Below, piece by piece: positions 15,762 to 58,966 of a DNA stretch of 64,000 bases (its first letter is position 1; each line of letters begins with the position of its first letter). The DNA comes from Crossaster papposus (taxonomy: Eukaryota > Echinodermata > Asteroidea > Velatida > Solasteridae). Both the position numbers and the translations under genes were made by a program. The stretch is taken from the NCBI GenBank assembly GCA_037893245.1, contig JBAIAA010000317.1:620001-684000 (forward strand). The letters run 5' to 3'. The notes beneath the pieces were generated by a model that saw only the letters and a list, made by a program, of their open reading frames with translations, was not told the DNA's origin and ran no database searches.

Positions 15762-16174
15762 CAGAGTTGTAACGAGTCACTGATTTGTGCGACTCGAGCT
15801 GAGTCGAGTCATTTCAAAGAAGTGAGTCGAGTTGAGTTATTGGTCAAGAAGCTTGAGTCGAGTCGATTCACAGTGTCAGTAATGAGTCAAGTCAAGTAAA
15901 TAGCTCAAGTCAATTAGAGTCACAACTGGCAGTCAATGCAAATAATTTTCGCAAATATTTTTTGCATTGTTTTGCTCCTATTTTTGGGACTCAGGCATTA
16001 GCCTTCACTCGAGTCGTTCTGATGAGGGACTCGAGTCGAGTTGAGTCATTTGCCTGTATGAGTCGAGTCGAGTCATTTTAATACTCATAGGGACTCGAAT
16101 CGAGTCAAGTTGCTATAAATTGTGACTCGAGTCGGACTTGAGTCGAGTCATTGACCCAAGTCATTACAACTCTA
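15762..16174. mobile_element. hAT-like non-autonomous element with iterated GAGTCGAGTC
   Basis: This 413-bp element starts CAGAGTTGTAACGAGTCA and ends with the complement (TCATTACAACTCTA). It is flanked by an 8-bp duplication with one mismatch (TATACTAC at 15754-15761, TCTACTAC at 16175-16182). A CAGAG terminus with 8-bp duplication is the hAT pattern. The interior consists of GAGTC/GACTC words in both orientations at irregular spacing. There is no coding sequence. Confidence 0.85.
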
Positions 16175-16350
16175 TCTACTACACACTAAAATATGATTTT
16201 CTTTAAACATTTGTGGACGGTATGTTGTAATACTGAAAAGAATCAATGGTTTGTCGCAGTTTTACTATAAAAATCAGTGTGTACATTTGTTTTTATAACA
16301 CGTTCCATTTGAATTATCATCGGTGATTTCAATGTTCTTATTTTGCACAG

Positions 16351-16472
16351 GCTGGGAGCGTAAACTCCACAATGCCATGTATAAGCACCTGCTAAACTAA
16401 CCAAAACGACCTTACCCCAACACACCACCAGACCAGGCCAAGGAGCCCCTAGCCTACATCAGAATGGCACAG
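16351..16472 (+). other. Candidate 5' leader exon with start codon
   Basis: A good splice acceptor (TTATTTTGCACAG|GCTGGG) and a consensus donor (GCACAG|GTGAGTG) bracket 122 bases. All three frames contain stops early, but the last nine bases are ATG-GCA-CAG with A at -3 and G at +4. It could therefore be an untranslated exon beginning a coding sequence with Met-Ala-Gln. No partner exon is recognised. This is a splice-signal inference only. Confidence 0.3.
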
Positions 16473-16614
16473 GTGAGTGAAATACCGACAGTACAGACTC
16501 TGAAATTCCACACAAACTCATATACACTTGATGCAGAATTGTTTATGTCGATATTAGGCAAGTCTAGACCGAACACTTGGGGCATATATATCGTGCAAAA
16601 GTTTGATTACAAGA

Positions 16615-16735
16615 AATATCTTACTTATTTGAAAGTAAAATAAGAGTGTAGGCATCCAGCAAAATGAAGGTGCTAGATATCCTGTAATTGTGCCGACAAA
16701 TTTAATCTTATAAAAGAAAAAAATCACGATCGATG
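16615..16735 (+). mobile_element. TTAA-type MITE fragment
   Basis: This matches the 5' third of the 7375-7740 element (CTTACTTATTTGAAAGTAAA, GTGTAGGCATCCAGCAAAAT, GCTAGATATCCTGTAATTG). Both ends are lost. Confidence 0.8.
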
Positions 16736-17872
16736 TATCTTTTTTACTTGTTTTGATTTGTTGACCGAAAGGTATTTATCAATAGGAATACAAATTGTGG
16801 TTGGCCGGTATGAAAAAAGGATGTTTCATCCCGGCTCATAGATCATGGGCCTGAAAATTTCACTCGCGTTGTAATTAAAGGTCATTACAGCATTAGTATA
16901 TCTATTTGTTTAAATAGGTGTGTTATTTGCACTTGAAAAGTAAAATCCTCTTCTAACGTGTCGTGCTGTTACCATAGAATTTGCACGTATGTGGCATTTT
17001 GGTTATAAACTATTCACAAAAATGGTTTTACATAACCCCATGCAAAGTTGAAAGACTTGAATTGTAAAACTTGTCTCATTTAAAAACTCGTTTGAGTCAT
17101 TTTGGTCAAAACGTACTTGATATGTAAGTGTCCATTTGATATATGTATATAATATAGATACAATGTACATAACCCCTCCCATTGACCCTCGATAGAGTTT
17201 GCACACAACCAAAGAAGCGGCAGGCAGGATACTACATTATATTTTCACACTAGCAAACATGTAGGAAAATGAAAGAAAAGAAGACGACACAGACACGACT
17301 CATGTCTTGCTGTGATTCCCTGCAGAGAGGAAAATCCATCTTAAGAATGTGACATTTGTCAGCCACTGTCAAAACACCCCCACATCGATCCCATCCTTAT
17401 TTTTATCACAGCATGTTCTCTATTAAACTGATACACTTTCTTCCTCAGTAAGTGGCTTCCGAATAAAAGTGATCACAGATCTCTCGCTTCTGAAATAGAT
17501 TTTATCCGAGGAGATCTTTCCTGGCAAACTGCAAGGGCTTACATATAACACTCGACACGTGGAGTGTTGTCACTCCTCGTTACCTTTTGAGGCCGGTGTT
17601 ATTAAACCAAAATAAATATGTTGTTGCTGCCAGACACAAAGTGCATTTAACCGAGATTTTTGTTTTTTAGAATTATAACTTGAAACGTTGATGTGTTGTT
17701 TCACCTTCAGAACATGTGGGAGCGTTTTGTATAAATTAAAGGGTTGTTTATAAAGTATATGAAAGAGGCTAGTCATTGCGTGGTTGTTATTGGTAGACTC
17801 CCGGGCTGAAAGATGACGTGTTGTGTACCTTTTTTCTAAAATTTAGATCGCCAAATGATCATTATTTCTTTG
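16736..17872. other. Unassigned stretch
   Basis: No gene is identified. The short open frames show no domain. Confidence 0.4.
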
Positions 17873-18250
17873 TATACACCATTTACAGATATTGACAAAT
17901 TGTACTACCGAATTATTAGGAAATATGTTACTTATTTAAAAGTAAATAATGATTGTAGGCATCCAGACAAATGATTGCACTAGATATTCTATAATTGTTC
18001 CGAAAAATTGATTTTTATTTAAAAACAGAAGAGATCGTCAGACGGCGATCGCACAAGAAACACCCTAGATCAACATAAGAACAACTGCCCGGCGCCAGTT
18101 GAAAATGAACGCCGCTTTTCTTTTCTTTTTCCTCGGTATCCATGATTTTAAAACTTCGAACACGTCAGTTAAACAATATTTACTATAAAATACAACCCCC
18201 TAAATCCACCTGATCATGACAATTCAAGCAATTATATATTATTTTTAAAT
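17873..18250 (+). mobile_element. TTAA-type MITE, near full-length diverged copy
   Basis: This aligns to 7375-7740 from ATACACCATTTACAGATATT through GTAAATAATGATTGTAGGC and the ACGGCGATCGC segment to CAAGCAATTATATATTA. The terminal TTAA motifs are eroded. Confidence 0.8.
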
Positions 18251-18989
18251 ATAAAATACAACAATACAAACAAATTGCTTGACTTTTGATAAGCCACATC
18301 GTTTGGTTGGCATTTACAAATTTTTACCGGATTTTAGTTGTGTGTGCTGCAAAATGGGCACCACGGTTTTAAATATGTTTAGCGATCATCCTAGATGGTC
18401 TAACTTAATCAAAAGGCACGCCTGTATAAAGCTGGTTAGGTTTTACCTGGAGTCTAAATGTATAAATAATTTTTAAACGAGCATCGCAGCGACCAACACA
18501 ATTTAAAAATCCTCCAGAGGCTTGTACGCAACGTAGATATGCCAATTCGACATTGGGCACATTTTAAGCATTGCATGTATCCTAGACAAAGTAACGTTTA
18601 AAATGTCAATTTATACTGTTATTTCTACCATTATGAAGTCGTTAATGGCACCAAATGCAGCGCACAGCTGTGCCGGGAATTGGCGTTTGTCCAGGGGTGC
18701 AAATGATGTGTGTATTGGCACAACCGGCGAGGGAGGTGCTGGCGCGAATGTAATCAGGTGCTGCTCGACAATAAAGACGGAAATTAGTAGCCTTCGAATG
18801 TTTGTCCAGAGCGTTGAACCAGTGACAGCTTTCATAAAAAAGGCATTAGTTGGAGATATTCTTCGTATTGTGTGTGTCTCTGTAAGGTTTGGGATTTCAG
18901 CCAGAATGGAGTACAGTTGAGTTTATAAATTGATTCGGTTTTGCCTGGGAGTGTGAATGCTTACTGCTGGATCCAAGCCCATGATGTAA
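18251..18989. other. Unassigned stretch with a 105-codon plus frame
   Basis: A plus frame at 18603-18920 is open for 105 codons, and the antisense frame is also open. The translation contains GTTGEGGAGANV but matches no family I know. Without splice or conservation evidence I do not call it a gene. Confidence 0.3.
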
Positions 18990-20030: not shown

Positions 20031-20909
20031 AGCTATGGTCACATTACCCAAAAGTAAACTGCTCGGCGGCCGAGCGGCGAGTTTTTAACCAATTCTGCCC
20101 GGCCACCGAGCGGCGGCCGCCCAGGCACCGCTTGTTTTTAGGGCATCGCTCGGTCGCCGCTGAAGTTTTAGCGCGGAGTTAAAATTTGGGCGGCGCCTGC
20201 TCACTTTCCACTCGCCGCCCAAAATACGCTCGGTGCCTGGGCGGTCGCTGCCCGGGCACCGACCTAATCGAGCGTTCGCCGCTGAGCGATTTAAGTCAAA
20301 AATCGAAGCCGCTAGGTCAGAGGCTGCCGAGCGGTCGCCGCCCGGTCGCCGCTGGGGGATCAATCGGTCACTGGGAGGCGAGTTCAAAATCGGTCGGCGT
20401 CCAGCAGCGCCAGCTCCATTCACCGCGACGTCTAGCCGATAATGGCTGACAATTACAATGACAATGGCAATGACAAAGCAAAAGCGGTTTTGATGATGAC
20501 CAGTCTGGGGAAGTCACATCCCAGGTTGCCCGTGAGAAATTTTCGGCAGAGCTTGGTGGGCCGCCGCCAGTACGCCTACGAGACACCCGCCGATGCCCCG
20601 TCGATTACCGTCCGGCCGCCGGGCAATTTCTTAAAAATCAGCCGGTGGCTGGTGGGAGACAGCCCGGCAATCGGAGGGTCACCGGTCGGTCACTGCCGGG
20701 ACACCGCGCGAAAAAGCTCCGATTTCGCCCAGTTTTGACCTAAAATCGACCAGCGACCGAGGGGAAATCGACAGGTCACCGCCCAGGCATCGCTGGGGCT
20801 CTACAGCCTGCTCGACTTTTCCAAAAATCGCTGGGCGATGCCTAAATTCCAGCAGCGACCGAGCAGGCTACTGATCGGTCGGTCGCTGCTCTGATTTGTG
20901 ACCATAGCT
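20031..20909. mobile_element. GC-rich inverted-repeat element built from CGGTCGCCGCTGGG words
   Basis: Perfect 13-base inverted ends (AGCTATGGTCACA at 20031-20043, complement at 20897-20909) enclose about 880 bp of very GC-rich sequence. The interior consists of GAGCGGCGACCG, CGGTCGCCGCTGGG and GCCCAGGCACCG variants in both orientations. All frames across it are open but encode only composition-driven arginine/proline/serine strings, so 20085-20738 is not coding. The target duplication is ambiguous; TA lies inside both ends. The superfamily is unassigned. Confidence 0.8.
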
Positions 20910-21204
20910 GTATATTTATGTAAATCTGAAAATCATAAAACAAAAATCATCTATTCAGTTTTGTGTGTACATTTCTTTCGATGGCCTGTTCCCAGTTCCG
21001 TCAAATTTTGTCAGAACACCTCGGATTATATTACAGGGATAGATATCACAGGTCTAGATATCACATTATTAAACATAAATCATCAGTTTAACTATTTGGT
21101 GTCCCACTAGTTATGTTGGTTTTTCTCATTTATTTTGCACCATTTGTTGCAAATATGGACATTCTTAAGTGATAGAAGCTCATTATTTTGATCAAGCTCT
21201 ATCG

Positions 21205-21874
21205 CGTTACCCACACGCTGGAACACGCTGTCACACGCTGGGGCAAAAATACATTGTTCAAAATACCTAAAATGTTCAGCGTTTGCCAGCGTGTGACAAC
21301 ATGTGACTGCACACGCTGGCGGCGCGCAGGAAGGTCGTTACTCACGCGTCGAACGCGCTAGACGATCGTTACCAACCCACTACTCACATTTCACTATAAA
21401 TCACTGATGCGTTCCTCACACGCTGAGCGCGTTCCTCACACGCTACTCACGGTTCCACTTGACTTTTTTTCTGTGAAAGTTCAGCGATTACCAGCGTATC
21501 AACTATTTTTAACGCGCTACTCATGCATTGGCCTAAAACTTTCTAGGGCCATAACCAGCGTGTCGCCAGCGTACACCAGCGTGTGAGTAGCGGGTTGATA
21601 ACGATCGTCTAGCGTGTTCGACGCGTGAGTAACGAACCTCCAACGCGCCGCCAGCGTGTGCAGTCACACGCTGGCAAACGCTGGAAATTGTAGGTATGTT
21701 GAAAAAAATATGTTTTACTCAGCGTGTGACAGCGTGTCCCAGCGTGTGAGTAACGCGCTCAGCGTGTTTCTTACGCTGGCCTAGCGTTGGTCAGCGTTTG
21801 CCAGCGTGTTGCCAAAATTACAACACGTTACTCACGCGTTGGCCTAAAATGTTCTGGTGTGACAGGGCCATTAT
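21205..21874. mobile_element. Fold-back element of CAGCGTGTGAGTAACGCG words, copy 1
   Basis: Two roughly 330-bp arms are inverted copies: 21205-21400 reads as the complement of 21580-21760 (ACGATCGTCTAGCG, GTGTGCAGTCACACGCTGG, GGCAAACGCTG). The right end, CTGGTGTGACAGGGCCATTA, is the family terminus. The left terminus is lost. The interior is dominated by CGCTGG/CCAGCG and GCGTTACTC words. Confidence 0.8.
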
Positions 21875-22650
21875 TAGATTAGATTAGATTAGATTTATTT
21901 ATTTGTCCACGTTAAAAACATAGAAACTTGGCATCCACTGGCCAAATACAAGTATACACAATAAATATAAAAACTATATAAATTACAAAATAAGTTAAGT
22001 TAGAAATACAAAGCAACAAAAGACAAAAGACCCACACACTAACAAAAATGCACCAGCCTTACAACACCAACCGGTCACATAAGGACATCAAGACAACAAC
22101 AGGCTGGGAATTTTTCCAACCCCCGTGTAGCCACCCGTGACCGGCTAACGCTGCCCCGACCAATCCATTCCAACAGTGCGGACAGTACATTAAAAAAACG
22201 GACCATGGCAAAAAGTGCTAACAACCCTTAGTAACCCTGCTAGCATTGTTGTTGAACATGTGAATAGCATTAGGAACAAATGATCGTCTAGTGCGGCATA
22301 GTGAGGTCCTAGGAACAGAGAGACGAATACCCGACCTATTGAATGTAAAACAATTGTTAAGTGGATGAGAGATGTCTTGCATTATTTTGTGCACTTTAAG
22401 CATTAGTCTTTTTACATACAGTGAACCAATTGAATCCAGATCAGTACCAATTAAACGCTGAGCGATTTTCCTTGGTCTCTCTAGTTTCTTAACATTTTGT
22501 TTAGACAGATTACCAAAATTACAAATCAAACAAAAAGTGAGAATACTTTGAATCAGTGACTGGTAAAAAAGATTTAAAATCCTATTGTCAACATGGAACT
22601 CTTTGAGTTTTCTCAAGAAGTACAACCTTTGATTAGCTTTACTAGAATGT
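21875..22650 (-). mobile_element. Rex1/Babar-like LINE, 5'-truncated
   Basis: The minus strand carries an RT C-terminal remnant followed by a 3' UTR and a tail of AATCT repeats (TAGATTAGATTAGATT on the plus strand at 21876-21892). It sits between two blocks of the CAGCGTGTG fold-back family. Only about 780 bp remain. Confidence 0.75.
22218..22649 (-). pseudogene. Rex1-like reverse transcriptase C-terminal remnant
   Basis: The minus frame encodes QRLYFLRKLKEFHV near its truncated start. Then come a FYQSLIQSILTFC block, the long helical thumb region, and SHPLNNCF with RRSFVPNAIHMFNN before the stop. This order (YFLRKL, FYQS, HPL, RRSF.P.AI..FN) is the C-terminus of Rex1/Babar-type CR1-group LINEs. 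The catalytic palm, including the FADD/YADD box, is missing, so the copy is inactive. It was truncated on insertion rather than internally disrupted. Confidence 0.75.
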
Positions 22651-22654
22651 AATT

Positions 22655-23180
22655 ATGGGTTGGTAACGATCGTCTAGCGCGTTCGACGCGTGAGTAACGA
22701 ACCTCCAACGCGCCGCCAGTGTGTGCAGTCACACGCTGGCAAACGCTGAACATTTTAGGTATGTTGAAAAATGTATTTTTGCCTCAGCGTGTTCCAGCGT
22801 GTGGGTAACGCGCTCAGCGCGTTGCGAACGCTGGCCTAGCGTTGGACAACGTTTACCCGCGTGTTGCCGAAATTCCAACACGTTGGCCTACAACGTTCTG
22901 GTGTGACAGGGCCATTACTGTAGTAGCGCGTCATATTTTTGTACAACTAATCATGTGGTCGTTGCCGTACGCTGGTGCGCGTTGGACCGCGCTACTCACG
23001 CGCTGGGCAGTCGTTAATCAGTCATCGAGCGCGTTACTAACGCGTTATGGACACGCTGAAATCACGGTTCCACTTGACTTTTTCTGAGGAAGTTCTGCGT
23101 TTGCCAGCGTATCAACTATTTGTAACGCGCTACTCACGCGTTTGCCTAAAACGTTCTGGTGTGACAGGACCATTACTTTC
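22655..23180. mobile_element. Fold-back element of CAGCGTGTGAGTAACGCG words, copy 2
   Basis: This contains two successive right-type termini (GTTCTGGTGTGACAGGGCC at 22895-22913; GACAGGACC near 23172) separated by the same TGTAGTAGCGCGTC segment found at 36247. The composite order is therefore shared with 35396-36556. Frames at 22721-23087 are incidental. Confidence 0.75.
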
Positions 23181-27008: not shown

Positions 27009-27011
27009 TTA

Positions 27012-27790
27012 GGGTGGGATTTCACGGGGCACGCGAACGATTCGCGCAGGATGCGAAAGTCCAACATCGGAGAGGTTTTTTTCCGAATGTGTCGCGACAA
27101 TGCGGTTTCTCACAACGTATGTGCGAATGTCGTGTGTAGATTTGCCGAACTATGGCCAGTCCACATACACGAAGAACATGCGACTAAAATGCGAATAACA
27201 CGAATGTTGCACGAATCTCGGACAACATTCGTGCGGACATTTCGCGACACATGCGACACATGCGAACTGTTCGCGCATATTTCGCGAATAATGAACGTCG
27301 TGCGACATTCATGCGACATTCGTACATATGTCGCGCGATTATCTTGCGAAAGGCTCGCGTTTGCTTCGTTGGCGAAGTCACCTGTTCTCAAGAAATACGC
27401 GAACAGTTCCTGAACAGCTCGAGAAATTATCGGACAAACTTCGCTGCTTTCGCGAGACATGCGCGATACATTCTTCCAACTGTCGGAATATGTTTCGGGT
27501 TTCACGACGATTTTGCGAAACATCACGCACGTCGTGAGTAGGTCTTGCGCATATGACGAAACTTTTATGACATTTTTGAGGGCAAATCACGAGCAAATCA
27601 CGACCCGGAGTGCTGGAAACGTTTGCAAGAAATTGTAAAAACAACTCCCGCGAACAATTAACGGCGCTTCTGAACCCCCGCGCATGTTTGGCAAACTGTT
27701 GAAGCCGAAAATACGAATGTTGGACTTTGCCATTTTCCCCGGAATTTTAATCCTTCGCAATTTGTTCGCGTGCCCCGTGAAAACCCACCC
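27012..27790. mobile_element. Inverted-repeat element of TGCGACA/TTCGCG words with TTA duplication
   Basis: The ends are inverted: GGGTGGGATTTCACGGGGCA then CGCGAAC at the left, and the complement of GGGTGGGTTTTCACGGGGCA then CGCGAAC at the right. Both sides are flanked by TTA (27009-27011, 27791-27793), a 3-bp duplication as in PIF/Harbinger-like insertions. The 779-bp interior is a mosaic of CGAA/TTCG, TGCGACA/TGTCGCA and GCGCG words. Many overlapping frames (27051-27644) are composition artefacts. Confidence 0.85.
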
Positions 27791-29289
27791 TTACTAGGGG
27801 CTGGCTCGTCAGTAACCACAACTTGGAATTCATCTCGAGGATTTATAGAGTTAATCGTAACCTTTCCGACTCCATCAACATTTGTCTTGTTTCGGTAGAT
27901 TTTAGGGACTTGGTCTTAAAGGCCTAGCTTGACTATTGATGCAATGGCAAACTTGCAACGGGCTGGAGGCCCGAACCACTTTTGGGGGAATCAAATTGAT
28001 GGTGTATTTACAAGTCTTGCTTAGTAAATACAGGTTATTTTACCAGCCAAAACGCCATTGGCTTTTTATGCTAAGCAACAAATCAACTGAATATCACCAG
28101 TCACAAACAATATACAATCAACTAAAAATCTGATTTGTAACCCTGTTTTGTCAAGAAAGAACTAGTTCTACTACCGCGAACAATTTGCCAACGAAGGTGA
28201 ATGGAACAGATTGTGCGCCAGCAAGATAGGCCTACATGTTTAGCAATATAAAGCGAACGCTGTCCGTTTCGCTAATGTTAACAAAATTACCGACACAACT
28301 GTAAACGTTTACACTTCAGTCGGGGCTACAAACCTGCCCTGACAACAACAGAAGATGTTACTCAAAGATATGTTACCGGAAAAGAAGTTTACTATAAATG
28401 TTTTACAAAAAATATCGCTATAATTTTGACTGAACAAAAAAACATACTATTTTAGTGATTCCCATCTGCTATTTCCAATGTTTGCAACATTGCTAATGTT
28501 GTATTTAGGTGTGATCCTTGGCCAAATGGCATATTATATGGTATTCAACCAAGTTGGAACACGGCATCCCTGTTACGTCTACGTATCACTATGTTTAAGT
28601 GTTACACACAATTGACCCCATATTATGTAGTAACAAACGGATATTGTTATACCAAAGTATTAAATTGTGAGATCCGACATTGTGTCAATAAATAGTCACA
28701 ATCATAGTTTGTTGCAAACGTTCATGTGCTACTCCAAAAGTGATGTTCCCGGGGAGTACATTACCTTGATCCTTCTCAGCGTTTGGTCCCTTCTGCAATA
28801 ACAAAACCAAGTTTAATAGAAGCAATCGTGGAAAAGCGGTTTTATTTTCGCTGGTACTATGTGAACCACTAATACGCACGCATCGCATGGAACAGTAATG
28901 GCAAACAAGTTTGGAAGACCTTTCGTTGCCGGCATTCTTCTGCCCTTTTTTCTGCCCCAGTGTTATTATTACCCGAACTTTAAGACCAAACTAGCTAACC
29001 ACTGATGGCCACCGTGCAAAAGCAACGCGCTAGCGTTAACATACGACACGCGCATTTTGAAATATGCCGCGCGTATAGATACAAACGTTCTACGCGTACA
29101 TTTATAGCGCGCAGTATCAAGATTTGGTGCGTCCTTTACAAGTTATAAGTTACCGTAGAGCTGTGGAATTCTGCTAATTATTGGCTTACATGATACTTGA
29201 TTAATGCTGGTTCAGGGGACATGTATTCACTTATTCTTGAAAGCCGGGGACATTACCACAGAATAATGCCATCCACGTGATCGAGTCTC
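27791..29289. other. Mostly unassigned; contains a fragment related to the 14783 MITE
   Basis: 28010-28210 shares AAGTCTTGCTTAG, ATGCTAAGCAA and TTGCCAACGAAG landmarks with 14783-14996, in part. I see nothing else of note. Confidence 0.4.
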
Positions 29290-29961: not shown

Positions 29962-32959
29962 TCAGCTATAAGCTTCTAACAAGATAGATTTGTAGATACG
30001 TTTAAAGGTCGAAATGTTTTTAGAGGCTTTGAGATTATCAGGAACTGAATTCCAAAGCATGGGTCCCTTATGTTTAACCGTTTTATGGGCAAAGGAAGTA
30101 CGGGTATATGGAATGTGGAAATTAGAGGCTTGACGAGTAAAGTAAGAATGAATTTCAAGATTCCGAGAAAAAATACTTTTTATGGCAGAAGGTATATTGT
30201 TAATGGTAACCTTGTACATGAGGGACCCAAGTTTATAATGATAAATATCATCTAGTTTTAAAGTTTTATGTTTTAAGAACAGGGGATCTGTATGTGCATT
30301 AAAATCTGAGAAGTTTATTATTCGAAGGGCCCGTTTCTGCAAAAGAAGAAGTCTGTTCAAATATTTGCCAGCGGCACCTCCCCATGCGATTATCCCATAA
30401 TTAATGTATGATAGAACCATGGTATTGTACAGAGAATCAAGAACAGGTTCGGGAAAGAAATGTTTGATCTTATTAATAACACCAATATTCCTAGCAATAA
30501 TTTTACAAATATGATCGATATGACTTTTCCATGTTAGCCCACAATCAATAAATAATCCCAAAAATTTACAGCAAACAGTTTGTTTAATACTGGAGTCATT
30601 TATCTTGACTTCACATGGAAGTTCACTAGCAGAATTACTAAATAACATGTAGTTAGATTTGGCAGTATTAAGGGATAGCCCATTGATTGCGAACCAATTC
30701 GCAGCAGACTTAAGTTCCATGTTAACTGTGCGCACAAGGTGACTAGTGTCACTATGTGAAAAAAGTAAATTGGAGTCATCAGCAAACAATATAAATGATA
30801 GCACACTAGAGGAATTTGTAAAGTCGTTAATATATAATAAAAAAAGCAATGGCCCAAGGATGGATCCTTGAGGTACACCATGGGTAAGAATACCAGAACT
30901 TGAATTTATACCATTAATTGATACATACTGCGATCTGTTCGAAAGATAGCTCCTAAACCATTCAAGGGGAATTCCTCTGATACCATAAAATGACAGTTTA
31001 TGCAATAAAATGTTATGGTCAATAGTGTCAAATGCCTTAGAGAGGTCAAGAAATATTCCTATAGTGTGTTTCGAGTCATCAATCGCCTTAGAAACTTTAT
31101 CAATAAAATCAAGGAGTGCATGACTGGTAGAATGTTTACTACGAAAACCAAATTGTGATTTAGACAAAATGTTATGTTTGTCCAGAAATGTAATGGTACG
31201 GGCGTAGACACATTTTTCGAAAATCTTCGAGAAACAGGGCAGGATAGAGATGGGTCTATAATTTTCAATACAATTTGGATCACCCTTTTTAAAAACAGGA
31301 ATAACTTTGGCAATTTTTAATTGGGATGGGACTATGCCCGTCGTAAAGGATGAATTGATAATATGCGCAAGAGGTTTACATATAGATAAAATTGACTTTT
31401 TAATAATAGAAATGTTTATTGTGTCGTGGCCAGAACTCGTTTTGTTTTGCAAATCTTTAACAATATTCACAATCTCATATTCATTAACTGGGGTAAGAAA
31501 GAATGAATTTGTATTAGGATTGGAAAGGTAGTCAGTAAAATTAAGAGGTGGTTGGATGGGTTGAATGTTGCTGGCAAGATTAGGTCCAATGTTGATAAAG
31601 TAATCATTAAAATAATTTACAATGTGCTCAGTATTATTAATTACTTTGCCATCAAAAATAATGCTACCAATACTTGGAGAGGATTTTTTATTATTCAAGA
31701 CGGAATTAATTACTTTCCAAGTATTACGGATATTATTTTTTTCCTGTTCGAACTGGCGAGCATAATACGTTTTTTTGGATGAACGTAGCAGATTGGTAAG
31801 GATATTTTTATACTTAGTGTATTTAAATTTATGAGATATGGAAGGATTGGACAAATATTGACGATATAGTTTGTTTTTCTTGTTGATGGATTTGAGGAGG
31901 GAATGCGTAATCCAAGGGGTTTTCGAGCTGTGGCTAATTTTGGTTTTATGGTTATGTCGAACTAAAGGAATATTTTTATCATATAGATAATTAAAATTAT
32001 CCATAAATGTATTATATGCTGATTCGGGGTTATTACAGCAAAATACATCCGTCCAATCAAACGATTGCAAGTTATCGATAAAATGATGAAGATTGTCATT
32101 AGCAAAATCACGAGTATAGGAAACATTATTTTTGTGGCTAGGTTCAGTATTTGAGTTAGAGGATTGTATGAACGTAAAAATAGGCAAATGATCGGAGATA
32201 TCGGAGAGTAAAATACCGGATTCGGGGGGGGGGGGGGGAAATATTTGACCAAAGATTATCAATAAGAGTTGTAGAAGTATCGGTAATGCGTGTTGGTTTA
32301 TCTATTGAAGGAAGGAATGAATAAGATGTAAGTAGATCGATAAATGTTTGAGTACTAGGATTAGCATAGTTGAGTAAATTAATATTAAAATCACCAGAAA
32401 TAATACAACGTTTGCTACCGTAGGCTATGCGGGAGCATACTACTTGAAAGGAGGTCATGAACTCACTGTGAACAACAGAGGGAGCTTTATATACAACACC
32501 TGTAACAATGTTTTTAGATTTAGGGACAGTAATTTCGATAAATAGTGACTCAAGGGTTTCATCTGAGAAATTTAGGTCTTCCCTAGGGCTAACATCCAGA
32601 TCCTTAGAAACATAAAGAGCGACTCCACCTCCAGCCTTATTACCATCTCTATTGTTCACAATGAGCTCATAACCAGGCAGGACAAAATAACTATGGGGAT
32701 CACTTTTAAGCCAGGTTTCAGACAGCGCAATGATTGAAAAGTTATGATTGATCGACTGGAGGAAGACTTGAAGTTTATCAAAATTTTTCTGTAAACTTCT
32801 GATATTAACATGTAACAAAGAAACGAAATTGTTATTAGTCGGTTTAGGAAATTGCTCTGTTGAATAATACTGAGAATTATTAGATAAATAAAACTGCGAG
32901 CTGGCATCAACACCATCATCATCAATATCCATCACAAAATCATTAATAGTACCAGCCAT
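29962..32959 (-). pseudogene. LINE ORF2: AP-endonuclease plus reverse transcriptase, one frameshift
   Basis: About 999 codons encode the enzyme that nicks target DNA and copies the LINE RNA. The endonuclease (first ~270 residues) has HVNIRSL, SETWL, ISGDFNIN and SDHLPIF. The RT follows with SSGHDTI, KVIPVFKKGDP, ENYRPISIL, GIFLDLSKAFDTIDH, HGVPQGSILGPLLF and the catalytic FADD (FILFADDSN). The thumb region and a C-terminal FTRQASNFHIP block precede the stop. The frame breaks at 32224-32238, where 15 G on the plus strand (proline codons in the sense) replace part of the EN between LIDNLWSNI and ESGILLSDISDHL. The two readable pieces are 32959 to ~32238 and ~32224 to 29962. Otherwise the ORF is intact, so the break looks recent. 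It could also be an assembly error in the homopolymer. Confidence 0.9.
32224..32238 (+). repeat. 15-base G homopolymer inside LINE coding region
   Basis: This is the site of the frame break in the LINE endonuclease domain. Frames on both sides are long and open. Confidence 0.9.
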
Positions 32960-33295
32960 GATCAGTACAGGTTAACGGTGCATAGCACAACCTTAAAGAC
33001 TCTGTAATTAATGCAAATTGGGTAGCCCAAAGAAGTAAATTATTCAGGTGTAACATGACCAGAGTCAGGAATGTTATTGTGAGTTGCCAGGATGATATTA
33101 AGCAAGCCCTTAGGTACATGTATACAAGGTACAAGAACATTAAGAATACCATTATAAATACAAAACATAAGTTTAAAGCTATACAAAATATGAGATTATG
33201 TGTTTAATTGAGAGGGGATTGATGAATGTGAACCAGGGAAATCAATGAAGTTGTCGTGATGCAGTCAGACATAATAGGACACAGTTTTGGTGAAC

Positions 33296-35104: not shown

Positions 35105-35395
35105 GGAGTGTCGTGGTCGGGCGGTTAAGAACTCGGTTGTCTGTTCCGCAGAGCGTGGGTTCGAGTCCCGGTGTCGACACGTGTGTCCTTAAGCAAGGCA
35201 ATTAAACCACTATTGCTTCGTCTTTCGGATGGGACGTAAAGCTGTAGGTCCCGTGCGTTGTGTAATGCACGTAAAAGAACCCAGTAACACTCTTCGCTAA
35301 GAGAAGGGGTTTGCCCCGGTGTTCCTGGCAGCGCCTCGGAATAGGCAACTAGATAGATGGCGCTTTACAAATACATGATCATCATCATCATCACA
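35105..35395 (+). mobile_element. tRNA-derived SINE with ATC tail
   Basis: The tRNA-like head at 35108-35180 has a paired GTGTCG/CGACAC acceptor, box A TGGTCGGGCGGTTAAGA and box B GGTTCGAGTCCCG. A conserved-type body follows (AAGCAAGGCAATTAAACCAC, TTTCGGATGGGACGTAAAG, CCGGTGTTCCTGGCAGCG). The 3' end is GGCGCTTTACAAATACATGA and (TCA)n. The body resembles the central domains of widespread invertebrate SINEs, and the tail resembles an L2-type LINE 3' end (compare 59912-59960). It abuts the fold-back element at 35396. Confidence 0.85.
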
Positions 35396-36556
35396 CCAGA
35401 CCATTTTAGGCCAACGCGTGAGTAACGTGTTGTAATTTTGGCAACACGCTGGCAAACGCTGACCAACGCTAGGCCAGCGTTAGCAACACGCTGAGCGCGT
35501 TACTCACGCGCTGAGACATGCTGTCACACGCTGAGGAAAACATATTTGTTTCAACATACATACAATTTCCAGCGTTTGCCAGCGTGTGACTGTACACGCT
35601 GGCGGAGCGTTGGAGGTTTGTTACTCACGCGTCGAACACGCTAAACGATCGTTATCAACCCGCTACTCACACGCTGGCGCACGCTGGCGTACGCTGGCGT
35701 ACTCCGGCGACACCTTGGTTATGGCCCTGTCACCCCAGAACGTTTTAGGCCAATGCATGAGTAGCGCGTTAAAAATAGTTGATACGCTGGCAATCGCTGA
35801 ACTTTCACACAAAAAGTCAAGTGGAACCGTGATTTCAGCGTGTCTATACAGGTTGATAACAGGTTTATAGCGTATGCCAGCGCATGAGTATCGTGTGAAG
35901 AACGCGCTCAGCGTGTGAGGAACGTATCGCTGATTTAAAGTAAAAATACGACAGTGGGTCGCCAGCGTGTGAGTAGTGGGTTAGTAACGATCGTCTAGCG
36001 CGTTCGACGCATGATTAACGACCACCCTGCGCGCCCCCAGCGTGTGCAGGCACACGCTGGCAAACGCTGAAAATTTTAGGTATGTTGAAAAATGTATTTT
36101 TGCCTCAGCGTGTGACAGCGTGTTCCAGCGTGTGGGTAACGCGCTTAGCGTGTTGCGAACGCTGGCCTAGCGTTGGTCAACGTTTACCCGCGTGTTACCG
36201 AAATTCCAACACGTTGGTCTAAAACGTTCTGGTGTGACAGGGCCATTAGTGTAGTAGCGCGTCGGCTTTTTATACAACTAACTATGTGGTCGTTGCAGTA
36301 CGCTGGCGCGCGTTGGAACGCGCTACTCACGCGCTGGGCAGTCGTTCATCAGTCGTCCAGCGCGTTACTAACGCCTTTCTCACCCGCTGGCGAACGCATT
36401 GAACCCGTTAACAACGCGTTATGGACACGCTGTAATCACGGTTCCACTTGACTTTTTCTGTGGAAGTTCAGCGTTTGCCAGCGTATCAACTATTTTTAAC
36501 GCGCTACTCACGCGTTGGCCTAAAACGTTCTAGTATGACAGGGCCATTAGAGGGCG
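35396..36556. mobile_element. Fold-back element of CAGCGTGTGAGTAACGCG words, composite copy 3
   Basis: Left-type termini occur at 35396 (truncated ACCAGACCATTTTAGGCC) and 35720 (ATGGCCCTGTCACCCCAGAA). Right-type termini occur at about 36220-36246 (GTTCTGGTGTGACAGGGCC) and 36527-36549. The order is thus L, L, R, R. Long inverted arms (ACGATCGTCTAGCG, GTGCAGTCACACGCTGG and relatives) alternate orientation. The R-R segment with TGTAGTAGCGCGTC is shared with 22918-23178. There is no coding sequence; frames at 35586-36633 are incidental. Confidence 0.8.
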
Positions 36557-51065: not shown

Positions 51066-54000
51066 TATGGTTTATGGTTTATGGTTTATTTTAAAACATG
51101 ACATATAGCAGTTAAAACTGAATTGCATGCCATTTACACCAAGAACATCTATAATGATTAGAAAAACACAAATAATTTAAACAAAAACATACATATGTGA
51201 AAAAATATAACCTTACGTAAAATACATTAAATTTGTATATACACAAAAAGACTAAAATTGTATTGTTTACATAAAAATCACTGGGCAAGACATAGTATAT
51301 ATAGTATGCATTTATGTACTATTCATTATTATGCATTAATCATTTAGAAGAGTTGTCAAATAGGGTAGGGGACTACATTTGAATCGTTTGGTTTTGCACT
51401 TATATGTCCCAAATGCATTTTTCTTTCTCAAGGTCATGGATGAGCTATACCCAGAGGCAGGATACCAGGTTGAGAATCTATCAGAGCGGCTAGACTTTTG
51501 GGCAAAGTCCTTGCATATTTGTTCTCTGCGATGTTCAAGAGTGATTAGCTGCAGAGTAGCCAAGGCTTCATCATAAGATGTATACTTATTAGAAAGAATA
51601 TAGCGACATACTCTTTCCGAATCTTCTTAACTCGAGATACCTGCCCCTGGGTAAGGCCTCCATTCCAGAGTGGAGCTGCATACTCAACAACTGGTCGGAT
51701 ATACCCTTTGTATACAGTTAACAATTCTTCGGCATTAAGACCTGCTTCTTTTAATTTTCGGAGCATAAACAATTTTCTGCCGGATTTGGTAATTATTGTG
51801 TCCACTTGCCCATCCCATTTCAAATCTTGTTGGATAGTAACTCCGAGCAACTTAACCTTCTCTACTACAACCAGTTTTTGGCCAGAAATACTTAAATCCA
51901 ACATAGGAGTGTTTTTTTTGCCATAATAAACCTGCATGGCTTGACATTTTGTTGGGTTCAATTTAAGTTTGTTATTTTTAGTCCAGTCATGCAGGGAGTC
52001 CAGACTATTCTGGATCTGGCCAGCATTTTCATACGGCCTAGTTTCACTTAGCGTCAAATCATCTACATATTTCCAAACATTGATTCCAGTATCTCTGTCC
52101 TCCTCCTGTGCACTGTTGATAGTTGCAAGGAAAATGATAGGAGCCATTTTCGTTCCTTGGGGGACACCCCCTGAGAGGTAGGCCCAATCAGAATATTCCG
52201 ATTTATATTTCACTCTCTGTTTCCGTTCAGAAAGGAAGTCCACCACCCACTGTATGATAGCTGGAGAAACACCCATTTTCAGCAAGTTGTCAAAAGCAAT
52301 TTTATGATCTATGACATCAAATGCTTTTGAGAAGTCTGTCAAGACCAGAGTACTGATGTTGTTAGGTTTTTCCGCACCCGAGACTAGATGGTGATACACG
52401 TCAATCAGGCAATGGGTGGTGGACATACCCCTCTGATTTCCATATTGGCGATCATCAATATGGGGCTGAATGGAGTCAACAATAAACTTAGAAATTCTCC
52501 CTTCGGCTACTTTGGCTATACACGAGGTGAGAGATATTGGTCTCAATTTATCGATTGAAGGAGGTGTCTGTTTCGGGATGGGAACGACATTAGCCTCCTT
52601 CCATTGAGTAGGGACTATACCTTGAGTCAGAGAAGTATTAATAATCTCTGTAATTGGCTTGCTCAGCTCGTAAGCAAATTCTCTAAGTAATTTAGTAGGC
52701 ACATTGTCGGGACCACCAGCTTTATAAACAGACAGCTTCTTCAAATCATTGTAAATTTCCCATGGTTCAAACTGAGCATGCGGTTCGCAACTAGGAAGAT
52801 AGGCCGGAAGATCACCAACATGCAATGGTTGTTGAACCTGTGAGAAACTAGCAAGATGCATGTTAATGGCATTTGCTACACCAACATAATCACAAGGATC
52901 AATATTTGGTACATGTATGGTTGCGTCGTTTTTCTGCATGTTGGCCAAATTCCGAATCTCCCTGTGCCATTTCCTCGGCTCAAATTGTTGTAGCTTTCTC
53001 ACCCTGTTCACATTGTGAGAGATCTTCGCCTTCTTTATCTCACTAATAATTGTATTTCTAAGTTTCTTTCTCGCGAGTATGTTACCCTCTGCAAACGCCT
53101 TCTGTCTAAGCCCAATGAGGTTTTTAATTTTATCTATCATCCACGGTTTATCACCAGGGTGGAGATGAACCACTTTGGTTGGGAAAAACTGAATAATTCC
53201 CTCATTGAGTGTATGATAGAAGGCGTCTGCCTTGGTTTGGGTTTCAGTGACATCATATATGGAAACCCAAGTTTGATTCTGGATCCATCTACCAAACTCT
53301 CTTTGTTTTGATTCAGTCATCGGTCGAACCACTTTCCTTTTAATTTCATTCACAACCAATGGTTGTTTAGGCACAAGGTTGACACAATTGTGGTCACTGC
53401 AACCAATGGGTGATTTCATAATCGGCGCACAATATTGCTCAGCCATGTTAGTAATTATAAGGTCTAATACAGCGTCGTCTCTTGTAGGTGCTTTGATCAC
53501 TTGTGTCAACCCATTGCCCAAACAGAGAGTCCTGATGTCAGTTCTATTAAAATCGCCTAAGACAATAATACCAGCTTGGTCTTTAGAAGTCCTTAGCGAG
53601 TCGATGGTAGTTGTCAGGTGCCATATCAACAGTTCTTGGTGTGGTGACTCAGGTGGAATGTATACAGCACACACAATCAGGTAGGGAACTCGTCTAGGAA
53701 GTTTTGGATGTGAAACCAGCAGCCAGCATACTTCCAGTTCAGGAGGAGCTGTTACGTCCTTGATTTGTTCAGCCTTCATGTTGTCATTCACATACACCAA
53801 TATACCTCCACCACGCTTGTCAGTACGGCAGTTGTTGAAGACCTCAAAGCCTGGTATGTGATACTGCTCTGGTGAAGTGTTAGGGTTCACCCAGGATTCC
53901 GTTATTACTGCTATATCAGACTCATCTTGCTTGAGGGATTCTTCCAATTCATCTCGTTTATTGAGGACTGAACGCGCATTGGTTAGGAAGAAGCGTGGAA

Positions 54001-54590
54001 GGAAGTTCTTACTGCTAGGCTTGAGAATGTCGATTTTAGGTACATCAACCAGAACTCTTAGTTTGGACATCCCATAATAACGAGTTGCTGGTTGTCTAGC
54101 TCTCGTAATAATTGAGATTATTTGTCTCTGTTTATTCTTACCACCACGGCTGCCTCTTGTAGACTTGATGACACCTAACTGTTTCAGTTTGATCCACGCG
54201 TTGGTTTCCAATGGGTTATTCTTTTCCTTGCAATTTCTACCTATTGCTCGCAATTTTGCCGTAGAATACCATATTTGTGTCATTGCGTGAAACTCCGGCT
54301 AGAAGAAAATAGGACGTCATCAGCGCCCTCAAGAGTCGTAAACATGCATCTCCACACCGTGGTTGGTCTTCGCCGCCGGTAAATCACTCTTGTCCAGTGT
54401 TAAAACCCCATCAAAACGTAAATAATTGCGCAAACAAACTCACCACTAGTTAAACAAAATTCACTCAAAAGTAATATAGGCACAGATTACAGTTGACATC
54501 AACGGTAACAAAATATAAATCAAAAAGATGTCACACAAAATCAGAGCTGACAAAAATACGTGTGGCTGCTGTTATAGCGCCCTCTCTCAA
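51066..54590 (-). mobile_element. Near full-length CR1-group LINE, single EN-RT ORF
   Basis: This minus-strand element has a 5' leader (54590-54284), one long ORF (54283 to ~51336 with a frameshift) and a 3' UTR ending in AAACCAT repeats (plus ATGGTTT at 51067-51088). It interrupts the AAGATGGCCGCC repeat family. No separate ORF1 is seen, although the first ~95 residues before the endonuclease are basic. The clade is not firmly assigned; Rex1- or CR1-like is plausible. Confidence 0.8.
51336..54283 (-). pseudogene. LINE EN-RT polyprotein with C-terminal frameshift
   Basis: Residues ~95-310 are an AP-type endonuclease: FLTNARSVLNKRDEL, ITESWV, IVLGDFNRTD and GCSDHNCV. RT motifs follow: YKAGGPDNVPTKLL, NVVPIPK, LRPISLTS, VLTDFSKAFDVIDH, GGVPQGTKMAP and the catalytic KYVDDLTLSE (YVDD). 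The thumb includes KLLGVTIQQDLKWD. After VSRVKKI near 51612-51622 the long frame turns into unrelated residues and stops at 51545, while the adjacent frame continues with conserved-looking LATLQLITLEHRREQICKDF to a stop at 51336. One single-base indel therefore separates the copy from an intact ~980-codon ORF. The rest is undamaged, so the insertion is young. Confidence 0.9.
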
Positions 54591-54782: not shown

Positions 54783-55185
54783 TATCTGGTACAAAGACAT
54801 ACAACACACTCTAAAAACAAATTGGTTGAAAATAACCAATATATTGGTCGATTTCAACCAATCCAGTTGGTAGATATGTGGATAACCAAAATATTGGTTA
54901 AAATAACCAATCTGATATTGGTTACCTAGTTAATCCATATTGGTTATAACACCAACCAATGCAATGTTGGTTAATTTAACCAATCCACAAAGGACTCCAA
55001 CCAATTTGTATTGGTAATTTGTATTGGTTATAGCACCAATACATAATAGTAGGGCTGCATATTCATATTGGTTAACACGCAACCAATTTGCATAACACCA
55101 ACCAAACCAATTTGCATTACACCAACCAATACAATATTTAATTCGAAGGTTCCCACGCAACCAATCACATAACGTGGACAAATTA
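54783..55185. repeat. Array of AACCAAT/ATTGGTT inverted words, cluster 1
   Basis: About 25 ACCAA or TTGGT words in both orientations form palindromes such as AACCAATATATTGGT and CCAAAATATTGG. Spacing is irregular and there is no coding potential; the minus 54930-55246 frames are artefacts. Confidence 0.8.
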
Positions 55186-55587
55186 CGTAATGAAATAATA
55201 CCAATGGAATTAACTTATTACACATTGAAATTACGCATACATACAATAATAACCTATTCCTATTAGATATCAGCTACTGAACACTTACTACACACTCAGC
55301 TATTGCCGTTGTTAGTTTTATAGTTCGCTTTTTTGTCAACGACGAAGTCACAGCTATTTTTTTCATGAATAATGTCAAAAGTTAAATACGGGTGAAATTT
55401 AATGTCAATTTTTCACTATGTTTGCACAAACATCTAAATTCAATCATGGAATCGTTTGAATAATTACATATTATGGTCAACTAAAAAAAGTGCATTTTTG
55501 ACTAAATACCACAATTTAACATCGACTATTGTCAAAACAAATTTTCTCACTTCTGATTGGTCAGTTGCTGTAGGTACATTTCCTACA
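55186..55587. other. Spacer between CCAAT arrays
   Basis: AT-rich, with nothing recognised. It may be the middle of one element bounded by the two arrays. Confidence 0.4.
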
Positions 55588-55775
55588 TTATGAATAACCA
55601 ATAGATTGGTAGATACCTTGGTTGCAAGCTCAACCAATATGACTGGTTGAAGGACAACCAACATTGGTTATGAATGACCAATATATTGGTTGGTACCTTG
55701 GTTGCAAGCTCAACCAATAAAACTGGTTAAAAGATAACCAATATATTGGTTATTACCTTGGTTACAAGCTCAACC
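55588..55775 (+). repeat. AACCAAT/ATTGGTT array, cluster 2 (tandem units)
   Basis: Three units of about 60-65 bases share ACCAATAKATTGGTWG, TACCTTGGTTGCAAGCTCAA and CCAATAWRACTGGTT. More regular than cluster 1. Confidence 0.8.
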
Positions 55776-55919
55776 AGGACTGATGAGATTGATTTGCTCT
55801 ATGCATGGGATGTTAAAACACAGACTGTAAGCATTAAAGGCACGCTAAGTATGTCTTCAAATGTTCAGTAACGCAAATACAAAATAAAGAGTTAAATCTT
55901 GGAAAGCAATTACAAACCA

Positions 55920-56356
55920 CTGGGCAATTTGTTACCGGTTACCGATATTACCGGTAATATCACCCCACAATTTGACTAAGTCTAAATATTACCAATATTA
56001 CCATGTTATTACCCAAATGATATTACCTGTGTGATAATGAAATTGTTATAAATTAATATTTGTTTTTTTAATATAAGGATTGGATATAATTGATCCTTGA
56101 GACCGACAGGATCTGTTTCTGATGAGAACAATTCTTGAAAAATGGTTCACCGATCTACCAAAGTTCAAATATTACTGTTATTACCCTGTTGAAACCAACA
56201 TTTTAGCAAGTTATAACAGGGTACTAAGAAGTAATGGTTAACATTTTACCGAGTTAATAACATGGAAATGCCAGAAATATCGGTTACATTCTCCTTGGTA
56301 ATATTTGGTAAATAGGGTAATATCAGGTGGTAATAACACAGCAATGCCAGGAATAT
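55920..56356. repeat. GGTAATATTACC word cluster
   Basis: Words GGTAATAT, ATATTACC and TAATAACA occur in both orientations; leads into duplicated segment B copy 2. Confidence 0.7.
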
Positions 56357-57425
56357 CAGTTACATTCTTCCTGGTAATATTGGGTAAATGGGGTAATATC
56401 GGGTGACCTCGATTTACATGTTGACCCCAAGTGGGCGTGATAAACCTTGGTGAAACATTATTGTCACTTTTTCTACATGAACGTTATGTTTTGCGTAATA
56501 GCGTAATAGCGATACGTTTAGGGTGTTTTCGTAGAGATAATTGTGTAATATTTATTTACCCCAAGTCTCAAATAAACAAATTTGCCAAAAAGCCAACACA
56601 CAAATAAATTAACAACAAATTATTTGCAAACTGTGATTACAGACGGCGGTGATATTGGGCACGTATATAGCGTTTAAGTACACACTAAGAATGTAGCACT
56701 GGCAAGCTCAGAAGAGTGAATGTTTATGTTTATATATACGTTGTAGTATTGTAGTATTGTTCCGGTAGTATCGTAATACTACAATTAATCAATTAACCAA
56801 TATTGGGTAAACAGGGTAATATCGGGTAGTAATAACGATGCAATGCTAAACATATCGGTAATATTCTCCCTGGTAATATTGGGTATTATAACACCTCACT
56901 CACAGATTCTGTGTCTTGATTGGCCGAGAGCGCGTCACGTGTCACTTGCTATTTTTACTATTTTTTACTTGCGCTAATCAAAAAGACTATACCACGCAAA
57001 AAGGACTATGCGCATAGCAACACACGAACTATGCGCATAGCAACGAAAGCGTGACTGAAACCCAGACGTGTGTTTCGGTGCATTGCGTAAACATTGCTCT
57101 ATCACCTTCGCACCCGTTCATCAAGGCAACAAAGTACACGTATGATTGAGAGACGTATAATTCGGAGTTTTTTTGTCATTACTATACTTTCAGGAAGCTT
57201 AAGTTGTGCAGAATCTGTGAGTGAGGTGTTATAAAACAAATATTGACTGTTTTATTTCGCGGTATAGTAAAACTAGCCTCCCTCGGTGATCCATGGAACA
57301 TTATATTTTCCCTCGGCTTCGCCTCGGGAAAATAGAATGCTCCATGGATCACCTCGGGAGGCTAGTTTTACTATACCACTCAAAGCAGTCAATATTTGTA
57401 TAATATCGGTTGGTAATAACAATGT
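56357..57425 (+). repeat. Duplicated segment B, copy 2, interrupted
   Basis: This is the paralog of 47485-48032, broken by a 515-bp insertion at 56886-57400. Outside the insertion the copies differ by only a few substitutions and small indels (for example a second GCGTAATA unit near 56499). Confidence 0.9.
56886..57400. mobile_element. Composite inverted-repeat insertion
   Basis: Part 1 (56887-57233) has perfect 25-base inverted ends beginning TATAACACCTCACTCACAGA. Part 2 (57237-57398) is an almost perfect 160-bp hairpin whose arms begin CAAATATTGACTG and GGTATAGTAAAACTAGCC and whose centre is CCTCGGCTTCGCCTCGG. The unfilled paralog at 48003 reads GGGTAATATCGG; here it is GGGTA, insertion, TAATATCGG, so TA appears duplicated. 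There is no coding sequence. It may be one element or two adjacent insertions. Confidence 0.85.
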
Positions 57426-57610
57426 AAATAACGGTTACATTTTCTCTGGTAATATTGGGTAAATGGGGTAATATCAGGTGGTAATAACAGGGAAATATTG
57501 GTCTACTATCTTCCCGTTATTACCCAGTAATAACCACGAGTTATTACTCGTTATAACTCGTTACAACCAGGGTAATATCGGGTAAAATGCCCAGTGGGAA
57601 CAGTAATGGT
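57426..57610. repeat. GGTAATATTGGG/TTATTACCC word cluster
   Basis: This continues the word cluster after duplicated segment B copy 2, with GTTATTACCCAGTAATAACC and CGAGTTATTACTCGTTATAA palindromic stretches. Confidence 0.7.
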
Positions 57611-57738
57611 AAGAATCTCAAGTCAGGTCGCAATTATTTTAACCATTTTCTTCTTTACTGACACCCGCTATTGTTATAAATTGGTATTGTACGTACGTGT
57701 TGCCAGCCATTTTAAAAAATGGCGGCCATCTTTGATTT

Positions 57739-58177
57739 CCAGTGATTTATGATTTGTTAATTATAAATGACCAACGAGAGGTAAATTGCAGCTTTATTGT
57801 ATGACCATTTGGTTTCTTTTGTAAAATAACCAATGTATGTCATTCAATGAAGCAATCTTGGAAAACATGGCCGCCATCTTGACAAAATGGCCGCCATCTT
57901 GAATGTTTAAGTTGTTTCTATTTTTGAATTGATAAGGGGTACATTTGGTGGATAGTTGCAACTGTTGGTGCTTGTATGAGCAATTAATCCAATGTAACAT
58001 TAAGTGTTACCATTTAGTGGCGGCCATCTTGAAAAAATGGCGGCCATATTGGATTTTAATTTGGCTAACGGGTTTTTTGTGTAAAGTGACCCCAAAAGAG
58101 TAGTTATGCCAATTTGGGTGCTTGTATCATCAAATGCAATATTGTGGTGAACAAAAGTTATTAATCTGCAGGACTAT
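57739..58177 (-). repeat. AAGATGGCGGC-bearing repeat, inverted copy
   Basis: This is the reverse complement of 38342-38782 with small differences. It holds GGCCGCCATCTTG twice and GGCGGCCATCTTG/GGCGGCCATATTG once each. Both borders match those of the plus copy (CCAGTGATTTATGATTTGTT; CTGCAGGACTA). Confidence 0.85.
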
Positions 58178-58199
58178 ACAGCATTAGAACATGTATGTA

Positions 58200-58966
58200 A
58201 AGTCGAAGCACGTATTAAGAGTGGGTCCACGTAAATATGTGTCCTCGGCATTTTTTTCTTCATTTTAATCGGTTTGAACTGAACTCAAACGGATTTCCCT
58301 CGGTTTTTCAACGCTATATACTCGTGTACGTTCGGTGATGCACTTAGAAACTCGGAGAAATTATTGAACCTGTTTAATAATTATCCGAATTGTCGCGGCA
58401 ACCTCAATACGGACGGTATCCGGTATACACACGGAATATGCACTGTACTCATTCGTTGCCATTCGTTGCAATGTGGAATAGGTACGGAAGAGTACGGAAA
58501 AGGTCTCCGATTCCGATCGATAACCGTATGTATTAAGATTTCATTCCGAACCCACATCATTGTAATGCCGATCAAAAAAACGGACGCACCGACTTTGATG
58601 TCACTAAATCCGACGATATACCACATTACCACGATGTAATACCATATATATAACGATCATATAACGAATACATTCCGGTTCAGCGGGAGATCCGGGGACG
58701 GCAAAATTGCTATAACAGCGGTCGGTCTTGAGATCAATAAATTTTTCAAAGTGGCATGTCCGGTGATGATCGGAGAGGTTTTGAATATAGACGGATTGCA
58801 ATCGGAATAGCAACTTATTAGATCCGGAATAAGACCGGATTATGATCGGTGTATTTTCATTTCTGGCTGGTTTTGTGACATTTCTCTCCGAACGTGTTCG
58901 AATTAATAATATTTCAGATCGGTTTATGAATGGAATTATAGATTCGGACAAGTGTGACAGGGGCCT
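58200..58966. mobile_element. Possible TCGGA/TCCGA word-rich inverted-repeat element
   Basis: CGGA/TCCG words (ACGGAATATGC, TCCGATTCCGATCGA, GATTCGGACA) recur in both orientations. The right end, GGACAAGTGTGACAGGGGCC, resembles the TGTGACAGGGCC terminus of the fold-back family. A matching left end (GGGTCCACGTAAATATGTGT) is only weakly similar. The minus frame at 58604-58951 has no domain. Confidence 0.45.

Follow-up and report, generated by a model that had tools for sequence, protein, structure and literature searches.

The repeats described here lie in a 64,000-nucleotide stretch of DNA from the sea star Crossaster papposus (the window; C317:620001-684000), which holds six elements labelled by their short words: E1 (GAGTC), E2 (CGGTCGC), E3 (three copies; CAGCGTGTG), E4 (TGCGACA), E5 (TCGGA) and E6 (AACCAAT). 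Four of them, E2, E3, E4 and E5, are best read from their ends and flanks as non-autonomous elements of PIF/Harbinger type. The explanation that we consider probable as a whole is that E2-E5 are four non-autonomous families of the PHIS superfamily (PIF/Harbinger-type), that their words are putative sites for a partner protein, and that the target triplet TWA (W being A or T) can be carried over from the donor. Genome-wide searches covered 1.02 Gb.

The terminal inverted repeats (TIRs) of these four families share a core at a fixed distance from the end, N8-TCACA: TCACA stands at base 9 in E2, E3 and E5, while E4 has TCACG, starting at base 11. This bears out an earlier reading of the window, made from the sequence only, which had noticed the common core in four termini. 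Two other word families, met nested in or beside other copies and not chosen for the core, are alike. An insert (TGGAGCTCTCACAC, L091) has TCACA at base 9 and a TGA duplication relative to the E2 sequence, and a flanking family (TACCCCAGTCACA, L075/L089), of which one end was seen, has TCACA at base 9 counted from its outer TTA.

Outside the TIRs stands TWA, the target described for PIF/Harbinger elements (PMC4482050). Of eight E2 ends read in L069-L076, seven show TTA or TAA outside the TIR and the eighth TCA, and exact TWA-AGCTATGGTCACA sites number 215 genome-wide, against one for the reversed control. TIR sites of E3 with two mismatches or fewer amount to 6,580 (reversed control, 0), and 29 of the 30 outer ends in 15 flank pairs carry TWA. 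The search for E4 left the middle base free and gave 258 TNA-TIR sites; that base was A or T in 96 of the 100 ends listed. The target of NuwaII, also of the PHIS superfamily, is described as C/TNA/G (PMC4482050), its TNA contrasting with this middle base of E4, and several E2 flanks read C/TWA/G. Finally, 18 of 19 E5 end rows have TWA, six of these being one site.

The addition of three bases on insertion is indicated by paralogous empty sites. The joined flanks of 14 E3 and 15 E2 insertions were searched genome-wide, the best 40 matches of each search were scored, and those spanning the junction were read (L147 by eye, L148 by script). A BLAST of joined flanks against the already collected loci alone gave no empty site. 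Empty sites were obtained for six insertions, three of E3 and three of E2, and 19 of the 20 sites hold a single TWA, the other reading GTA. Two insertions are flanked by TTA/TTA, with TTA in four of five empty sites and GTA in one (L022) or TTA in three of three (L023). The other four are mismatched: TAA/TTA with TTA in four of four empty sites (L011), TTA/TAA with TTA in one of one (L121), TAA/TTA with TAA in five of five (L123), and TTA/TAA with TAA in two of two (L125; L147, L148). In each of the four, the target base is kept on one flank and the other W occupies the opposite flank. Because the empty sites hold one TWA, insertion of E2 and E3 adds 3 bp at TWA; E4 and E5 contribute TWA flanks, the empty-site evidence being that of E2 and E3. 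It could be argued that the triplet is part of the element and that no target is duplicated (as in Spy, or with a 3-bp deletion on insertion), given that a scan of the 15 E3 flank pairs gave no clear excess of duplication outside TWA and that the middle base seems independent between the two ends. The empty sites contradict this for E2 and E3, since filling adds three bases, and we regard it as very improbable.

The two copies of the triplet often differ at their middle base. Over E2-E5, 29 flank pairs are direct and 35 non-matching at this position (n = 64, repeat copies of one event partly included), with 14 and 21 in E2 (n = 35), 5 and 9 in E3 (n = 14), 6 and 4 in E4 (n = 10, by eye) and 4 and 1 in E5 (n = 5, by eye). 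For E2 and E4, pairs were taken from the first 100 places listed in searches with 215, 208 and 258 matches, and the E2 patterns require TWA at both ends. The E3 pairs are those of 1050-1300 bp, without L028, whose right flank is not TWA; three copies outside this range, L010 and L034 (both direct) and L012 (non-matching), were not counted. Rows were dropped in E5 for a CAA flank (C285) or an unmatched end (C389, C147, C401), and in E4 for a right flank other than TWA (L079/L080). Independent events are fewer than pairs, because L011, L014 and L030 are one host site and E2 copies on C152 repeat events (123649 and 285304, with like flanks, are one event, and 198742 and 401459 may be another). 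Ten of the 21 non-matching E2 copies were read, and they have ten different flanks. Simple point decay does not account for the pattern, since the E3 ends keep the outer T and A. The E5 pairs, of which four in five are direct, speak against mismatch as a general rule.

The inward triplet is more often TAA than TTA: it is TAA at 63 of the 100 E2 ends listed (p 0.012; 32 of 47 and 31 of 53 for the two end types) and at 23 of 29 E3 ends (p 0.002), figures that include copies of one event and are inflated by segmental copies. Faithful duplication would give half in complete pairs and could not produce such an excess there.

In the mechanism that we propose, insertion duplicates TWA, but either flank often has a middle base other than the target's. 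The element would leave its donor with its own 5' TWA overhangs, ligatable into a new site. Ligation of such an overhang opposite the target TWA would dispense with gap filling and would in many cases form a W:W mismatch, fixable either way. We infer a 5'-TWA at each end of the excised element by analogy with the staggered-cut geometry of mPing, for which a model from yeast has target site duplications (TSDs) cut with a 5' overhang; precise excision of PIF/Harbinger miniature inverted-repeat transposable elements (MITEs) is described in the same paper (PMC4561436). That the donor overhang is joined to the new site, so that the middle base of the duplication is donor-inherited at one or both ends, is put forward tentatively; the mismatched empty-site cases fit it without amounting to proof. 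In the yeast work, matching and non-matching flanks (TTA/TAA, TAA/TTA) were engineered on purpose, and mPing with TCA flanks inserted at TTA or TAA in 45 of 46 cases; the section with this result does not state whether both junctions were sequenced, so that it is no test of carry-over (PMC4561436). About a third of mJing TSD triplets are reported to differ from TAA/TTA, with no comparison of left and right in the portion consulted (PMC6850418). A literature search for natural non-matching Harbinger TSDs, with most subscription papers and Repbase outside its scope, gave one relevant paper among those listed, PMC4561436 with its engineered flanks, and the pattern may be published.

The main rival of carry-over is gene conversion between the arms, by which a faithful TSD would later have had the terminal TWA of one end copied onto the other. 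The arms are inverted repeats, and a non-matching pair necessarily shows one and the same inward triplet at its two ends (TAA/TTA or TTA/TAA), as conversion would yield. Against conversion, about half of the copies would require a tract that takes in a mismatch only two bases from where homology ends. In two E4 copies one side reads TCA or TGA (TCA against TAA, TGA against TTA; four were tried, and two had no partner end) and the same inward triplet is lacking opposite, but point mutation would also explain them, and they do not settle the matter. In L090, an E3 copy within E2 is flanked by TAA and TTA at a place that is TGG in two other copies of E2. This leans toward carry-over, although the host E2 copy may have differed. 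On balance, conversion appears rather unlikely.

The word content of the elements was compared with chance as the share of 8-mers recurring on either strand, against 100 dinucleotide shuffles per element. The words are real, as the sequence-only reading had supposed. In five elements they stand out at this word length: recurrence is 0.254 in E1 (shuffle mean 0.028), 0.217 in E2 (0.044), 0.286 in one E3 unit (0.043), 0.184 in E4 (0.051) and 0.296 in E6 (0.097), values that no shuffle reaches, either for both orientations or for inverted matches alone. E5, the element near 58200, is not enriched at k = 8 (0.052 against 0.041, reached by 23 of 100 shuffles, and by 79 of 100 for inverted matches alone). 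It is enriched at k = 6 (0 of 100), and among its short words CGGA is present 24 times where shuffles average 8.6 (0 of 300 shuffles) and TTCGGA four times against 0.9 (2 of 300). The values of three control stretches from the window were reached by 82, 3 and 76 of 100 shuffles, so that one of them is mildly repetitive. Tandem Repeats Finder (TRF) gave no array in E1, E2, E4 or E5 and only short arrays in E3. In E6 it gave arrays with periods of 24, 60 and 80, each of about two copies, which account for part of the enrichment of this element. An origin as tandem satellite is rejected for E1-E5 and partial for E6. The observed/expected ratio of CpG is 1.05 to 1.79 in E1-E5 and 0.55 in E6; the window as a whole has 0.92, and the controls have 0.74, 1.20 and 0.61.

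The large inverted structure of E3 has a further source, since it is, by the order of its parts, an element inserted in inverted orientation into its own kind. The four TIRs of the 1.15-kb unit run left, left, right, right, and its inverted arms, A-A' (35424-35679/35960-36215) and B-B' (35721-35848/36420-36547), follow the order A-B-A'-B', as expected if B-A', the inverted form of an element A-B', is inserted into that element at TTA. TTA flanks the inner copy at both ends in 24 of 24 inner rows (29 rows listed, some loci overlapping), and the composite was amplified after the self-insertion. The large palindrome thus comes partly from self-insertion and not from iteration of words; words remain enriched within a single arm (0.272 against 0.026, 0 of 100 shuffles). 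Other word-like sequences were used as E3 targets and flank it in L026 and L031 (CCCCTATTTCAC... with GACGCG words, and GATACGTTCCG words).

The family-specific word on both strands could be the binding site of a fast-diversifying DNA-binding partner. Mobilisation of E2-E5 would depend on Harbinger-type proteins acting in trans, namely a DDE transposase and a Myb/SANT-type ORF1 protein, and internal copies would accumulate as more sites recruit more protein, with inverted self-insertion doubling the arms. The Myb-like ORF1 protein of PIF/Harbinger is described as binding the TIRs, bringing in the transposase and being needed (PMC2836001), and Myb-like proteins as more divergent than transposases (PMC9179366). 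By analogy, words acting as Myb/ORF1 or transposase binding sites are plausible: family-specific words beside a constant TIR core would fit ORF1 binding. A quite possible alternative is that the words merely arose through duplications, inversions and self-insertion within the elements and bind no protein. E3 did grow by inverted self-insertion and E6 holds tandem copies; against this, enrichment persists in the single E3 arm, E1, E2, E4 and E5 are free of TRF arrays, and no more than two of the 25 longest inverted pairs of the window belong to E2 and E4, one of 39 nt in E2 and the TIR pair of E4, of 45 nt.

E2-E5 resemble PIF/Harbinger (PHIS) elements and Tourist-type MITEs such as mPing in the TWA target, the 3-bp duplication, a TIR motif at a fixed distance and many non-autonomous copies. 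They differ from PIF/Harbinger MITEs in their word-filled interiors, in flanks often mismatched at the middle base and in the T with which the E3 TIR starts. The first TIR base is A in E2, G in E4 and A or G in E5, and Harbinger TIRs are said usually to start with A or G (PMC4482050); for plant PIF/Harbinger TIRs, G(N)5GTT has been given (PMC2213677). A word-filled architecture is not unprecedented, because the interiors of a family of Medicago truncatula, the PIF/Harbinger MtPH-A6-4, are described as almost wholly repeated motif, sometimes in opposite orientation at the ends; there the repeats are 60-bp tandem units, whereas here the words are short, irregularly spaced and family-specific (PMC2213677).

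Several observations weigh against assigning E2-E5 to PIF/Harbinger with words as partner sites. Besides the T at the start of the E3 TIR, identical TSD copies, a usual PIF/Harbinger feature, fail in about half of the pairs. The words could be relics of internal duplication and not binding sites. The search for an autonomous partner adds to these points. DDE_Tnp_4 transposase genes are present in the genome, all 150 scored candidates matching (of 1818 at first look), but none of the 30 placed loci that were read of these 150 (about 1.5 kb each side, few distinct families) has an E2-E5 terminus, and no autonomous partner was found there; no search for a Myb ORF was made. The long TIR pairs L089-L092 and L012 contain nested or fragmentary word elements with no frame above 175 aa, no family scan having been made. 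Beside a 468-aa DDE_Tnp_4 family (L044 and others) lies a nested word element (TIR GGTTCCCACTATCACGATT, flanks TTAA/TTAA), which is not the end of that family. An end of a 537-aa family resembles E4 in having GGTTTTCACG; it is a single right end, and no conclusion is drawn from it. Adjoining the 468-aa family, a word element at L052:90-490 (C908), with words AATCGTGG/GATCGTA, TIR TGCTAGGTTCCCACTATCACG and TTAA on both sides, is inverted in L044 and mostly lost in L053.

E1 and E6 stand apart. E1 ends in CAGAGTTG...CAACTCTA, and the 8-mers immediately outside agree in seven of eight bases; it has neither TWA nor the TCACA core. This flank evidence is one insertion site in eight loci (duplicated contigs; the left flank of L004 is replaced). 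From its ends and the 8-bp duplication with one mismatch, E1 looks like a hAT element. Non-autonomous hAT elements of the Ds, Tol2 and Herves type are alike in their CAGAG... ends, an 8-bp duplication (here with one mismatch) and both-strand motifs. For E6 a second end was not found, and its sole end, CACTCTAAAAA, is without the core. The widest claim of the sequence-only reading, one new superfamily for all six elements, could draw on their common architecture and on some word enrichment in every element. It is rejected because E1 is hAT-like, with its 8-bp duplication and no core, and the coreless end of E6 also speaks against it; we give it next to no probability. A single superfamily survives for E2-E5, with their TWA flanks, their core at a fixed distance and two unselected families alike, and E6 is not assignable.

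All six elements reported from the sequence are present, with limits corrected for E1, E2 and E4 (Table 1). Near 58200, GAGTGGGTCCACG is not a terminus, because the left end is absent from that copy; in E5 copies that have it, the start lies about 67 bp outside the position homologous to 58264. The E3 copies at 35391 and 21204 are incomplete at the left; the former lacks the first 8 nt of its left TIR and adjoins a CAT microsatellite.

Table 1. Elements of the window with their ends and flanking bases (positions within the window).
Feature	Position	Strand	Ends, flanks and basis
E1, GAGTCGAGTC-word element	15762..16174	+	TIR CAGAGTTGTAA; sequence, copies L001-L008, word test
E1 flanks	15754-15761; 16175-16182		TATACTAC; TCTACTAC; 8-bp duplication, one mismatch, hAT-like
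E2, CGGTCGC/GGCACCG-word element	20031..20909	+	TIR AGCTATGGTCACA; left flank TAA 20028-20030; right flank GTA in window copy
E3 copy, start inside element	21204..21870	+	Right TIR GGTGTGACAGGGCCA, then TTA
E3 fragment	22656..23172	+	Inner right half to 22914, then TTA; outer right arm to 23172, then TTA
E4, TGCGACA/TTCGCG-word element	27012..27790	+	TIR GGGTGGGWTTTCACGGGGC; TTA 27009-27011 and TTA 27791-27793
E3 composite	35391..36546	+	Outer right end 36546; TTA 36547-36549
Inner E3 unit, inverted orientation	35722..36245	-	TTA 35719-35721 and 36246-36248; inverted arms I1, I2; other composites with same flank pattern
E6, AACCAATATTGGTT-word element	54807..55776	+	Left end CACTCTAAAAA; tandem copies inside
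E5, TCGGA-word element, left end absent here	58264..58965	+	Right TIR GGCCCCTGTCACACTTGTCC (read inward), then TAA 58966-58968

Near-identical copies of E1, E2 and E4 occur on C956 and C440, ordered as on C317 and similarly spaced, and the assembly therefore contains haplotigs or large duplications. The window also contains three elements of long interspersed nuclear element (LINE) type with RVT_1 and endonuclease domains (29962-32971, 51545-54298 and 60055-62730, all on the minus strand), two of which are open from stop to stop in one frame, over 917 and 891 aa. Next to the right end of an E3 copy lies a LINE-like 3' fragment (21874-22655, by eye) that carries an ATTAG repeat, and its open reading frame at 22218-22652 (-) matches ALKBH8_N, a match common in LINE C-termini. 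A rhodopsin-type receptor exon lies at 3747-4253 (-) (7tm_1, E 7.8e-18; six window frames scanned), and a poly-A-rich tandem repeat at 63376-63600 has ATGCGACGCC units, a CpG word within an A tract.

A constant TIR core with diverging words makes E2-E5 a natural set in which to study the co-evolution of a transposon's DNA-binding partner and its sites. If carry-over is true, the TSD mismatch would be a heritable, genome-wide record of the staggered cleavage proposed for mPing in yeast, and ordinary MITE copies could be read for the chemistry of transposition, since the middle base would tell the gap-filled flank from the one ligated to a carried overhang. One PIF/Harbinger survey is described as allowing no TSD mismatch (PMC2213677); filters of TSD identity in MITE mining would then lose about half of such elements.

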